Source of the DNA: Thermococcus paralvinellae
GTDB taxonomy: Archaea; Methanobacteriota_B; Thermococci; Thermococcales; Thermococcaceae
Length of the DNA: 64,000 nucleotides
Reading direction: 5' to 3'
Assembly (NCBI RefSeq): GCF_000517445.1
Contig: NZ_CP006965.1
Span: 1,278,681 to 1,342,680 of the forward strand
Within the stretch, counting starts at the first letter, position 1. Each line of letters opens with the position of its first letter. This document shows, one piece after another, positions 55,104 to 59,840 of the stretch. A program made the position numbers and the translations under genes. The notes beneath the pieces are model-generated. The model worked only from the letters and a program-made list of their open reading frames with translations. It was not told the DNA's origin and did no database searches.

Positions 55104-55380
55104 ACCACCACCCCACAATAACTCCAACTCCAAAGCCTATTAGGTTTGCGACCATATCATAGTACGAGAAGCATCTCCCGGGAACAAAGAGCTGGAGATA
55201 TTCAAGGACAATAGGCAACGCGAGAAGAAAAGCCCTATCATACCCCAAAATTCCCAAAATTAGAAACTCTAAAAAATGTGCAATTTTATCTCCTCCGCTT
55301 ATGGGGGATGTTGGCACGCTAGGAGTTAAGTTAGCATAGATGAGAAAAAGCAAGTAGGTAATGAGAAGCTTTTTCCTCAT
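55054..55380 (-). CDS. VanZ-family membrane protein
   Basis: A 108-residue membrane protein with three to four spans; GDKIAHFLEFLILGILGY and LEYLQLFVPGRCFSYYDMVA are VanZ-like (conserved His and Glu). Function unknown. It starts 4 bases into the end of the ThiR-like gene and overlaps the start of the YjbQ gene by about 50 bases. Confidence 0.85.
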   Translation of the reverse strand: MRKKLLITYLLFLIYANLTPSVPTSPISGGDKIAHFLEFLILGILGYDRAFLLALPIVLEYLQLFVPGRCFSYYDMVANLIGFGVGVIVGWWYESGKKGASVFYKRRN

Positions 55381-56270
55381 AAATAACTCTCCAGCTTTTT
55401 CACTTTTTCAACAACCTCAATTGGATCTCTTCCAAAGATGTAAACGCACGGCTCAATTCCAAAGGCTCCTTTGTCTATCACCGCATCTAAGATACCTTTT
55501 TCTTTAAAAAGCTGGACTATTAGCTCAACAGTTTTGTCCTCATCCCTCTTCTTTTCTTCTATGCTCTCCACTTTAAACCCTGCTTTTCTGAGCGCTTTAT
55601 CAATGTTTTCATCGAATTTTATATTAATGACACTTCTTATTTCTGGAGCAACCTTTGAGAGTTCAAGAAGAATCTTTGCGGTATGCCTGCTCACACCAAA
55701 TTCTGGTGGCAAAGCAAAAGCCTTTCCCTTTACAACTGTTATTCTCCCCGGAACTGCTGCCACATCACTAAAATCTTTAGATTCTGGTAAAGCGTAAGCT
55801 ATATTGCTCCTAATTTCGGGAATTAGCTGAAGGAACTTATCATCTTGCAAAAGCTCGCTCAAAGCCAAATTCAGCCTTTCTAAAACTTCACTCCTTGAGG
55901 GTATTGCCATAAAAATTTCCTTGCAGATTGATTCGTCAATTCCAGCATACTCTGCATAATATTTGCAGAGAAATCCGCTCTGAAAAAGCTCAAAAAACTT
56001 TCTTGCTGTGAATTTTATAATTTCCTCTTTTTTGGCACCATAAATTATGAGCTTTGCAATTTCCTCAGCAATTTCTTCAATTTTTTCATCTAATTCATTT
56101 TCTAACTTTTTATATTTGCCAGCTAAATACTTACTGACCATCGCTTGAGTTATTCCTAAATAGTCAGCTATTTTTGCTTGGGTAAATCCTTCCCTATAGA
56201 GCCTTTGGGCAACTTTAGCCCTTAAGTTGGGCATTATTTCCTCAACCCAGAATACACATGGTGTTTTCAT
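55377..56270 (-). CDS. thiR: ThiR-like regulator: HTH plus ThiN-type sensor domain
   Basis: A 297-residue protein. The N-terminal XRE-type HTH (LYREGFTQAKIADYLGITQA, MVSKYLAGKYKK) is followed by a linker of about 80 residues and a C-terminal ThiN-like domain (FALPPEFGVSRHTAKILLEL ... GIEPCVYIFGRDP), which binds thiamine monophosphate. This is the architecture proposed for archaeal ThiR. Start at 56270 with GGGAGGG upstream. Neighbours YjbQ and the ECF S-component fit a thiamine regulon (inference). Confidence 0.87.
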   Translation of the reverse strand: MKTPCVFWVEEIMPNLRAKVAQRLYREGFTQAKIADYLGITQAMVSKYLAGKYKKLENELDEKIEEIAEEIAKLIIYGAKKEEIIKFTARKFFELFQSGFLCKYYAEYAGIDESICKEIFMAIPSRSEVLERLNLALSELLQDDKFLQLIPEIRSNIAYALPESKDFSDVAAVPGRITVVKGKAFALPPEFGVSRHTAKILLELSKVAPEIRSVINIKFDENIDKALRKAGFKVESIEEKKRDEDKTVELIVQLFKEKGILDAVIDKGAFGIEPCVYIFGRDPIEVVEKVKKLESYL

Positions 56271-56628
56271 TTTCCCTCCCATTCTTGATTTTTAAAACCC
56301 GGTTATAAAATTATCTCTCCCATAGTTATAAACAGATTTATGTCAAAGATGCTTTTGATTATGAACGTCACAGCAAAAAGCTTGGGAGAAACGATATTGT
56401 AAAAGTTAAAGGTTGGCAAAAACGTCACAGCAAAAAGCTTGGGAGAAACGATATTGTAAAAGTTAAAGGTTGGCAAAAACGTCACAGCAAAAAGCTTGGG
56501 AGAAACGATATTGTAAAAGTTAAAGGTTGGCAAATCTTTGAATTTTTCAATTTTTGCCTGTGATATGGAATCATCAGTGTACCAAAAGCTTTATATTGCC
56601 CCCAGCTCTTTTTCCTATGGGGAGTAGT
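56271..56628. promoter_or_regulatory. Divergent intergenic region (358 bases)
   Basis: Between the ThiR-like gene and the lipoprotein gene. It holds a minus-strand TATA box TTTATAAC near 56325-56332, the 3 x 57 bp tandem repeat at 56364-56534, and a plus-strand TATA-like CTTTATATTG at 56589-56598. The frame on the minus strand through the repeats has no ribosome site and is judged non-coding. Confidence 0.7.
56364..56534. repeat. Perfect tandem repeat, 3 copies of 57 bp
   Basis: Three identical 57-base units begin at 56364, 56421 and 56478; no mismatch was found. Each contains CACAGCAAAAAGCTTGGGAG and the near-palindrome ACGATATTGT. Because 57 is a multiple of three, a minus-strand frame reads the same 19 residues three times, but this does not look like a gene. 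Exact identity implies recent expansion or homogenisation. Confidence 0.95.
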
Positions 56629-58164
56629 ATGAGACTGACAAGGATTTTCATCATATCGATAATTCTCATGCTGTCCCTAGGCTGCATCTCTGTCGAGACA
56701 TCCTTTCATTTCCATAATCACAACTATCCAATCAAAGTTTTTGTTCAAATCGAGGAAGAAGATGCCATTTTTGAGTTTGCAAAATTTGAGCTGACGGTTG
56801 GTAATGTAACTATTGATAAGCTGAACACCCCAGTCTTTGTTGGAAGAGTAAGCGAAAATAATGGAGAAGTTCCAATAATTTTCACTGTGAAAGGAAGTCT
56901 CACAAACTGGTACGGAAAGAAAATCAAAATAAGAGAGCTCCTATCATCATCCTTCAATGCAACAGGAAATGATAAAATTTTGATAACCTTAAAAATCTAT
57001 AGGGAAGAGGGCACATTTAGGGTTAAAATTGATGAAAAGAAGTCCGGAATCATTGGAAGAGACGTTCCAGAAGAAGTCTTTTTAAATCCAGAGGAAGTTC
57101 TTCTGCAGAGAGCTAAAGGAACAAAGTTCTATGAGGAGCTGATAAAAGAAATCGAGAAGAACAAAGCGATAAGAGATGAACTGCTGGAAAAATACGAAAG
57201 AACGGAAAATCTGACGTATTTAAAGAGTTACAGAGACTCTTTTTATGCTATCAGAGTTTTTGGAGAGCTCGCAAAATGGAGAGAACTAAATGAGGTTGAA
57301 TACAAAATTCTCTTGACAGAGTTAAAGGCAAACAACGCTTACTATTCCTATTACCCCTCTCCCCCCAAAGATTTCTCTGCACTTGTTTTTTCTGATGACT
57401 CCCCATATTATTCAACACTCAAGATCAAGGATTCATTCAATTCCTCCTTACCTTTTATATATTACACGGGCAGAGGCTTCAACCTCTATCCAGTAACAGC
57501 CATCCATTGGGCTGAAATGTACTTTCAAAGAGAACAGAATAAAAAAGCTCTCCAAATCTTAAAAGAGCTCAGCCAATATGCCCAATACGGGGAATACATG
57601 AGAGAAGAATATGTACTCTTCAAGAATTATTTTCACTTTGAAAATGCTTCAGTCCCCTGGGTTTCTGGATATGCTCAAGGCATGGGCGCTGGGGTTTATG
57701 CAATAGCTTATAACTTAACAGGCAATGAAACCTACTTGAGAATAGCTAAGAGCCTAGTGAACTCCTTTGACTTGCCGTTGAACATGAATGGCTTTGTTTC
57801 ACACACAAAATATGGAGACTGGTATCTTGAATACAACTACAACTCAAATGAGCTCGTTCTAAATGGGCACATCATAGCTCTGCAGGGACTTTACTATTAC
57901 TGGCAGATAACTCATGATGAAAAAGCTTGGCAGCTTTTCCAAAACGGAGTTCATGCTGTAAGAAATGCACTCCCGATATTTGATACCGGCTCGTGGTCGA
58001 AATATTCAAATATTCATGGAGATGCCAGCGAGTTCTACCACCGTTTACATATTAGACTCTTGAAGTGGCTCTATGATGTTACTGGGGATAAATATTTCCT
58101 TGAATATGCAAGAAAATGGAACGACTACCTCATGATTAGAGGTCTGAAACCAGAAAAGATTTAG
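56629..58164 (+). CDS. Lipoprotein with glucuronyl C5-epimerase-like C-terminal domain
   Basis: A 511-residue exported protein. The signal RIFIISIILMLSLGC ends in a lipobox Cys, so it is anchored outside the membrane. Residues about 25-170 form an unassigned beta-rich region; residues about 230-511 resemble the D-glucuronyl C5-epimerase C-terminal domain: YPVTAIHWAEMYFQ, SGYAQGMGAGVYAIAY, YNSNELVLNGHIIALQGLYY and YSNIHGDASEFYHRLHI. Start at 56629, after GGGGAG. Followed after 8 bases by a shorter paralog. Presumably modifies or binds an extracellular polysaccharide. Confidence 0.87.
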   Translation: MRLTRIFIISIILMLSLGCISVETSFHFHNHNYPIKVFVQIEEEDAIFEFAKFELTVGNVTIDKLNTPVFVGRVSENNGEVPIIFTVKGSLTNWYGKKIKIRELLSSSFNATGNDKILITLKIYREEGTFRVKIDEKKSGIIGRDVPEEVFLNPEEVLLQRAKGTKFYEELIKEIEKNKAIRDELLEKYERTENLTYLKSYRDSFYAIRVFGELAKWRELNEVEYKILLTELKANNAYYSYYPSPPKDFSALVFSDDSPYYSTLKIKDSFNSSLPFIYYTGRGFNLYPVTAIHWAEMYFQREQNKKALQILKELSQYAQYGEYMREEYVLFKNYFHFENASVPWVSGYAQGMGAGVYAIAYNLTGNETYLRIAKSLVNSFDLPLNMNGFVSHTKYGDWYLEYNYNSNELVLNGHIIALQGLYYYWQITHDEKAWQLFQNGVHAVRNALPIFDTGSWSKYSNIHGDASEFYHRLHIRLLKWLYDVTGDKYFLEYARKWNDYLMIRGLKPEKI

Positions 58165-58172
58165 GTGAGCAG

Positions 58173-59276
58173 ATGAGGGAGAAAGCTTTAATCTTGGTCT
58201 TTATGTTACTGACTTCTTCTCTCTTTGCTATATATGAAAATTCAGAAAACCGAATTTTGGCTCAAACCGAGGATACAGAACTTATCACTCTTCTCCAAGA
58301 AAACGAGAATGTTATGATTGATAACTTCATAGCATTTCTCAGCACTATGAATCCTCTCCATCTAATCTCAAGCTTTGAGGTTTCTTATCCCCTTTTAGTG
58401 TTTTCAAAGGTAGAGTTAACCCCAGAGAGAAATAAAATCTTAAAAACAACACTAAGAGCAAACAATGAGTTCTATTCCCACTATTTATCGCCACTCAAAA
58501 GCTTCTATGCAGTCTCATTTGTAGATTCCGCACCATATAATAGCGTATTTCTTGCAAACTCAAGCTTTAAAAGTGCCCTGCCCTATGTACACTACAACTT
58601 TAGAGGATTAGTTCTTTATCCAGTTACAGCACTCCACTGGGCTGATGTTTATTTTCAGATAGGTAAAGAAGAGAAAGCTCTAGAAATATTAAGGGAACTT
58701 CAGTCATATTTAGTCACAAAGAATTACCAGGGATTAGAATATGCAGTTTTTGAAAACTATTTTCACTTCGAGAACTCTTCAATTCCCTGGATTTCAGGCT
58801 ATGCTCAGGGACTAGGTGCTGGCTTGTATGCAAGAGCTTACAACATTACAAAAAACGAGAGCTACCTAAAAACTGCTCAGCTCTTAATGAACTCATTCAG
58901 AGTTCCCTACAGTAAAGGAGGATTTGTTGTAAATTCAACTTATGGACTTTGGATTTTGGAATATGCCTACAACTCAAATGAGCTTGTGTTGAATGGACAT
59001 ATAATAGCCCTCCAAGGTGTTTACTACTATTGGGAAATTACAAACGATACCTATGCAAAATGGGTTTTTGATGAAGGAGTAAAAGCTGTTGAAAAAGCTC
59101 TTCCAGACTTTGATAAAAACGGATGGAGCTTGTACTCAAACATTCATGGCAGAGCGATGAAAAATTATCACGAACTCCATATTCAGCTTTTGGAATGGCT
59201 ATATGAAAAAACAAAAGATGAAAAATTCAAAGAATACGCAGAAAGATGGAGGAGATCACTCCAAAATGTGAGGTAG
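58173..59276 (+). CDS. Exported glucuronyl C5-epimerase-like protein, paralog
   Basis: A 367-residue paralog of the preceding protein, lacking its N-terminal beta-rich region. A Sec signal or anchor (KALILVFMLLTSSLFAIYE) without a lipobox Cys is followed directly by the epimerase-like domain: YPVTALHWADVYFQ, SGYAQGLGAGLYARAY, YNSNELVLNGHIIALQGVYY and YSNIHGRAMKNYHELHI. The GTGAG ribosome site overlaps the gap to the upstream gene, so both are co-translated. The 3' end overlaps the convergent ECF gene by about 20 bases. Confidence 0.87.
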   Translation: MREKALILVFMLLTSSLFAIYENSENRILAQTEDTELITLLQENENVMIDNFIAFLSTMNPLHLISSFEVSYPLLVFSKVELTPERNKILKTTLRANNEFYSHYLSPLKSFYAVSFVDSAPYNSVFLANSSFKSALPYVHYNFRGLVLYPVTALHWADVYFQIGKEEKALEILRELQSYLVTKNYQGLEYAVFENYFHFENSSIPWISGYAQGLGAGLYARAYNITKNESYLKTAQLLMNSFRVPYSKGGFVVNSTYGLWILEYAYNSNELVLNGHIIALQGVYYYWEITNDTYAKWVFDEGVKAVEKALPDFDKNGWSLYSNIHGRAMKNYHELHIQLLEWLYEKTKDEKFKEYAERWRRSLQNVR

Positions 59277-59840
59277 CGCTCTAATCACGGGCAGACTTAT
59301 TAGGATTCCTCCAATTACATCCACGGCACTTTGAATTGCATTTGGAATTGCTATCACAAGCCAAAATGGAATGTGGAACCACTCTTCAATCTTTGGGATA
59401 ACTTGCTCCCTTGGAATGCCGAGCCATATTGGAAGTGCATAATAATAGTTCAGTCCAACCATGAGGGGTATTCTAATCGTAATGCTAATCAGATAGGCAG
59501 AAACGATAAATACAATGAGCTGCTTTTCTGTGTAGCTCTCTGGATTGAATTTTGTAAGTTTTTTCGCTATCTCAAGACCTAAGATTACACTGAGCGTTGC
59601 AAAGAACTTCATGCTGGCACCGAGCCATGAAGATGGAGCCACTATGCTAAGTCCAACAAAGAGTAATGCCAAAGATATCAAGGAACTTGCAAAGCCTAGT
59701 AAGAGGTAAACAACAACTATTGGGATTGCAACTAAATCTATCGTCATCCCCCACTGAGTAGGCACCTTGAGTGGAGAAACATTTAGCATTAAACTAAGAG
59801 CCAGCATTATTCCTATTAGAGCTATCTCCCTTGATTTCAT
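59256..59840 (-). CDS. ECF transporter S-component-like membrane protein
   Basis: A 194-residue membrane protein with about six spans; IALIGIMLALSLMLNVSPL at the N-terminus has the AxxxA-like helix that binds EcfT, and the later DVIGGILISLPVI closes the fold. S-components capture vitamins. No EcfA or EcfT genes lie here, so a shared module elsewhere would be used. The nearby ThiR-like and YjbQ genes make thiamine or its precursor a candidate substrate (inference). GGTGGTGTGA precedes the ATG. Confidence 0.82.
   Translation of the reverse strand: MKSREIALIGIMLALSLMLNVSPLKVPTQWGMTIDLVAIPIVVVYLLLGFASSLISLALLFVGLSIVAPSSWLGASMKFFATLSVILGLEIAKKLTKFNPESYTEKQLIVFIVSAYLISITIRIPLMVGLNYYYALPIWLGIPREQVIPKIEEWFHIPFWLVIAIPNAIQSAVDVIGGILISLPVIRALPHILE

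Follow-up and report, generated by a model that had tools for sequence, protein, structure and literature searches.

A perfect three-copy tandem repeat lies between a thiR-like regulator gene and a lipoprotein-like gene of Thermococcus paralvinellae. We consider it highly probable that this array is a scar of gene loss, left by pyrI and triplicated after the gene had decayed, in a genome that seems to have lost de novo UMP synthesis and is predicted to salvage uracil through a nucleobase permease and the uracil phosphoribosyltransferase Upp.

In the window (the whole 64,000-nucleotide stretch of DNA analyzed here), TRF reports the array with a period of 57, 3.0 copies, a 100% match and a score of 342, which is far beyond chance. 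A script comparison found the three 57-mers to be letter-identical, and the flanking bases (G vs. A at 56363, T vs. A at 56535) fix the boundaries, permitting no one-base shift in either direction. A first-pass annotation of this DNA had described three identical 171-base copies between thiR-like and lipoprotein-like genes; TRF and domain matches bear out the perfect intergenic triplication, with the size corrected to 57 bases per copy and 171 in total. The same annotation had called for a search for the unit elsewhere. In the T. paralvinellae genome (hereafter G000; a single contig of 1,957,742 bases, 99.87% complete) the unit occupies one locus, all remaining matches being 14-20 bases long with E values of at least 0.675. 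The near-palindrome ACGATATTGT, singled out in that annotation, is found exactly in the window only within the three copies, and its three one-mismatch matches elsewhere are at chance level (2.08 expected in all). A search for inverted repeats near the array yielded 19 pairs, all weak and mostly duplicates produced by the array's own repetition; the strongest span 11-20 nt at 75-83%, or 8 nt without a mismatch. Coordinates are collected in Table 1. In the surrounding DNA, two neighboring genes in 56629-59276 both encode C5-epimerase C-terminal domains, the first with a lipoprotein-like signal (by eye), and 59256-59840, near thiR, encodes a putative ECF-transporter permease subunit (weak NCBIfam match to the MPN527 family, 33.9 bits against a cut-off of 80).

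Table 1. Features of the array region (window positions) and of related loci in the T. paralvinellae genome.
Feature	Position	Strand	Basis
thiR-like regulator (HTH + ThiN), intact; ATG at 56270 taken as start, in-frame ATG also at 56282	55377..56270	-	ORF and domain matches
pyrI-derived bases left of array; deletion junction of old pyrB upstream region with pyrI (GCTTT common to both)	56350..56363	+	Alignment to G003
Repeat copy 1, a pyrI remnant in which 49 bp of internal codons are joined to 8 bp close to the end of pyrI (TTGGCAAA)	56364..56420	+	56350-56412 vs. G003 L010 3559-3622, 90.6%
Repeat copy 2, identical to copy 1	56421..56477	+	TRF, script comparison
Repeat copy 3, identical; continues straight into last 7 bases of pyrI	56478..56534	+	56527-56548 = L010 3882-3903, 100%
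Last 7 pyrI bases including stop codon (TCTTTGA), followed by conserved downstream region	56535..56541	+	Alignment
Lipoprotein-like gene; product has a D-glucuronyl C5-epimerase C-terminal domain; by eye, TATA-like box TTTATATT at 56590; follows pyrI in relatives	56629..58164	+	ORF, domains, synteny
pyrC-pyrK scar	G000:C1:1605000-1609500 (L115)
pyrD scar	G000:C1:1428500-1433500 (L116)
pyrE scar	G000:C1:1828500-1832500 (L122)
pyrF scar	G000:C1:1247000-1252000 (L114)
NCS2 permease gene overlapping upp	L124 1442-2725 and 738-1445	-

The origin of the unit is evident from related genomes. Among seven genomes of the genus, it is found once each in G003, G001, G006 and G004 (E = 1.1e-14, 2.3e-13, 3.3e-11 and 2.6e-9, respectively), about 1.2 kb upstream of thiR, where it matches pyrI at 94, 96, 95 and 89%, in the same order, over 39-50 bp. 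The site is that of a functional gene: in all four relatives it is flanked by thiR and by the lipoprotein gene, and between these two genes G003 and G006 have two ORFs, encoding PyrB (the catalytic subunit of aspartate carbamoyltransferase) and PyrI (its regulatory subunit). The G003 pair scores above the NCBIfam cut-offs of TIGR00670 (PyrB) and TIGR00240 (PyrI), and PyrB and PyrI of the four relatives match the G003 proteins at no less than 95%. Intact pyrB and pyrI are present in four of the seven genomes, and G000 has neither. Aligned with G003, the T. paralvinellae sequence is collinear without a break as far as 56355, which lies upstream of pyrB; it then continues within pyrI, and finally picks up at the 3′ end of pyrI with its stop codon and the first bases beyond (intervals in Table 1). 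A one-copy version of the array keeps positions 119-182 and 442-456 of the pyrI coding sequence, with ACGATATTGT spanning K-D-I-V codons of pyrI, one base changed. Relative to pyrI of the four relatives, all three copies carry one deleted C and two substitutions (AAAGAT, or AAGGAT in G004, to AACGAT, and GTTGA to GTTAA). Judged by these alignments, the repeat unit is a remnant of pyrI coding sequence, composed of two fused scraps of the gene. No functional copy was detected elsewhere in G000: there is no PyrI match at E ≤ 0.001, and a PyrB query finds only one protein, 30% identical to G003 PyrB, which scores as ornithine carbamoyltransferase.

The junctions suggest how this scar may have formed. 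At the left junction, GCTTT belongs to both of the joined sequences, pyrI (GTGCTTTTAGCTATG) and the former upstream region (AAGCTTTAAATAGG in G003); at the second, GTTGAAGG is joined to TTGGCAAATC with no common base and a loss of 259 bp; the tandem junction of the array likewise has no common base. The sequence itself shows the deletions and the descent from pyrI. In the order of events that we infer, an ancestor carrying pyrB-pyrI between thiR and the lipoprotein gene would first have lost ∼1.1 kb, with GCTTT at both ends of the deletion; the whole of pyrB went with it, as did the initial quarter of pyrI and the greater part of the presumed pyrB promoter. Another deletion, of 259 bp and between ends without shared bases, would then have removed most of the remaining pyrI, and the remnant would have been altered at the three positions noted above. 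A 57-bp stretch over the second junction would next have been tandemly duplicated, again with ends lacking shared bases, and slippage or unequal recombination would have brought the number of identical copies to three, so recently that they have not diverged. As the three changes are absent from the relatives and present in every copy, deletion and mutation should precede triplication, and the triplication should be young, which supports the earlier proposal that identity implies recent expansion; the copies presumably either have not diverged since triplication or have been homogenized. Both the age of the array and its polymorphism are inferred from one genome of the species.

Loss of the pyrBI operon is accompanied by truncation of the other de novo pyrimidine genes. 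Relative to G003, G000 retains 0 of 933 bp of pyrB and 79 of 456 bp of pyrI (counting the array once), and, at syntenic sites, 537/1224 bp of pyrC, 89/747 bp of pyrK (which adjoins pyrC in G003), 331/900 bp of pyrD, 47/549 bp of pyrE and 344/630 bp of pyrF, such that 9-55% of the coding sequence is left in the scars of these last five genes. These counts exclude two non-collinear matches of 28 bp (pyrF) and 15 bp (pyrE); by the same measure, control sequences are fully retained (thiR, 906/906 bp; the flank downstream of pyrK, 719/719 bp). Genome-wide family searches of G000, which covered pyrC, pyrD, pyrE and pyrF, returned no match above cut-off, the weaker matches including the remnants themselves. 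Above-cut-off pyrC, pyrD and pyrF are present in five of the seven genus genomes (G001 and G003-G006, with pyrC of G005 interrupted by a contig end), and above-cut-off pyrE in four (G001, G003, G004 and G006). T. paralvinellae thus seems, on this genomic evidence, to be without the whole de novo UMP pathway. Tandem-repeat searches of the other four pyr scar regions gave three weak rows (scores 40-41), none of them at a deletion junction, so triplication is peculiar to the pyrI scar. The pyrE deletion also took most of a neighboring P-loop ATPase gene (ParA/MinD-like by eye), which G003 keeps (L084 2022-3038).

A family-wide search detected pyrI in 87 of 94 genomes; of the 74 genomes that are ≥90% complete and ≤5% contaminated, 72 have it. 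G000 and G065 are the good-quality genomes that lack a match, the latter being 90% complete in 150 contigs; the lack of a match in G065 may reflect either incompleteness or a further loss.

A salvage route is in place. All seven genus genomes encode an above-cut-off upp, and in G000 an open gene for a 427-aa NCS2 nucleobase permease lies directly upstream of upp, overlapping its start by 4 bases. Two of the seven genomes, G000 and G002, have this permease beside upp (94% amino acid identity); in the other five (G001, G003, G004, G005 and G006) no such gene was found within the 1.5 kb flanks of upp. Among family models, the G000 permease scores highest with pbuX (xanthine), at 385.8 bits, below the cut-off of 414, and reaches 204 bits with uracil permease; its linkage to upp argues for uracil as the substrate. 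Given the loss of the pyr pathway and the intact permease-upp operon, T. paralvinellae is predicted to be a natural uracil auxotroph, which presumably must import uracil-type nucleotides. Decay of the whole de novo pathway, together with the possibility of uracil salvage through the permease-Upp operon, would explain why the pyrBI operon could be lost. Between G000 and G003, identity at this locus (L124) is 82% on the upp side and 90% on the other.

The second permease-bearing genome, G002, is 75% complete. There, thiR directly adjoins the lipoprotein gene, with no pyrBI remnant found between them and with breakpoints that differ from those of G000; its pyrC contains stop codons and frame breaks, and no above-cut-off match to pyrD, pyrE or pyrF was found, for which incompleteness of the genome may account in part. 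Both genomes with the permease beside upp lack pyrBI at an otherwise intact locus, and four of the five genomes without a permease within 1.5 kb of upp have intact pyrBI; in the fifth, G005 (80% complete), neither pyrB nor pyrI is detectable. A tentative extension, to which we give slightly less than even credence, is that possession of a permease-upp operon acts as a switch that makes de novo pyrimidine synthesis dispensable in the genus, and that the seven-gene pathway was then lost more than once, one of these losses leaving the triplicated pyrI scar as a by-product. A tree based on thiR and upp was set aside, as the two genes give conflicting kinship of G000, G002 and G003 (thiR of G000 is 91.9% identical to that of G003 and 84.6% to that of G002; for upp, the values are 79.1% and 88.8%). 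Because of this disagreement, we make no claim of shared versus independent losses in G000 and G002 beyond the differing pyrBI breakpoints.

Location between divergent genes, and three perfect copies, would also be expected of operator or activator sites (e.g. for ThiR, or of the TFB/TATA type) that were expanded by selection and control how strongly thiR or the lipoprotein gene is expressed, and the first-pass annotation had suggested that copy number may vary between strains and alter either promoter. A regulatory reading is not supported: relatives have the unit as part of the pyrI coding sequence, in G000 it occurs at one locus, and ACGATATTGT beyond the array is at chance level within the window. 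The core promoters, placed by eye, lie more than 50 bp from the array: the likely thiR promoter block (∼56291-56310) before it, and the TATA-like box of the lipoprotein gene 56 bp past it. Relatives keep both without repeats, the thiR-side sequence in all four with intact pyrBI, and the lipoprotein-side box in G003, G004 and G006, the three of these four that were inspected. Given this distance and conservation, we expect no effect of the array on the core promoters, and consider a regulatory role very unlikely. The repeat is, on present sequence evidence, most likely a functionless, recently triplicated pyrI fossil, although so perfect an array could instead reflect maintained function or an error of assembly. 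Assemblies are well known to go wrong at short, perfect tandem copies, and the real chromosome might carry only one or two copies of the scar; as the 57-bp unit is below usual read length and the genome is a single contig, we regard this, too, as improbable to a similar degree, and the deletion of pyrBI would hold whatever the copy number.

Two further origins appear less probable still. Since 57 is a multiple of three, a 76-codon minus-strand ORF (56303-56533) stays open through the array, and triplication might in principle have created a new small gene; this ORF begins with TTG, has no Pfam match and runs antisense to the pyrI remnant, making a coding function highly improbable. Least probable of all, to the point of being negligible, is insertion of a mobile or multi-copy element (a MITE, a CRISPR-like array or a member of an intergenic repeat family). 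Such elements could present as tandem direct repeats within intergenic DNA, but the array has neither a second copy in the genome nor spacers between its copies, 55300-57000 matches no Rfam family at gathering score, and pyrI already accounts for the origin of the unit.

Among the open-access titles and abstract starts listed, none reports this pyrimidine-gene loss, and none of the papers listed deals with a ThiR regulator in archaea. Section 2.5 of one study describes the genes of pyrimidine biosynthesis as conserved throughout Thermococcales, with 42 species surveyed in KEGG (PMC13260591); as worded there, this statement runs against the loss in T. paralvinellae, unless the species is missing from the survey table or is an exception in it. 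According to the same study, Thermococcus kodakarensis strains with disrupted pyrF are uracil auxotrophs that grow on uracil through Upp (PMC13260591). T. paralvinellae resembles these strains, as described there, in the loss of UMP synthesis and in the predicted rescue by uracil through the same enzyme; unlike the laboratory strains, its loss is natural and affects pyrB, I, C, K, D, E and F, and its auxotrophy is a prediction. T. paralvinellae has been cultured on maltose or tryptone with 0.01% yeast extract (PMC4762990), a medium that could serve as a source of pyrimidines. The strain, predicted to be a natural uracil auxotroph within an order described as conserving its genes for pyrimidine biosynthesis (PMC13260591), would be of direct use in uracil-based genetics, and would offer a way to study the evolution of metabolic dependence in free-living hyperthermophiles.

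An odd intergenic repeat thus becomes a legible record of gene loss; its worth lies in drawing attention to a lost route of de novo UMP synthesis, and it cautions that intergenic repeats are not always regulatory. Where prokaryotes have discarded dispensable biosynthetic operons, deletion scars and pseudogene remnants are known to stay behind, and the T. paralvinellae locus resembles these in its intact syntenic flanks, the coding fragments at its junctions, the joint decay of the pathway and the presence of a salvage route; it differs in that one scar is tandemly triplicated, and in that the host belongs to a family that nearly always keeps pyrI. Prokaryotic minisatellites, or VNTR loci, consist of perfect tandem direct repeats with units of tens of bases. 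The array, as called by TRF, shares these properties and is likewise apparently recent; in contrast to such loci, its unit is a recognizable gene fossil confined to a single locus and is known here from one genome.
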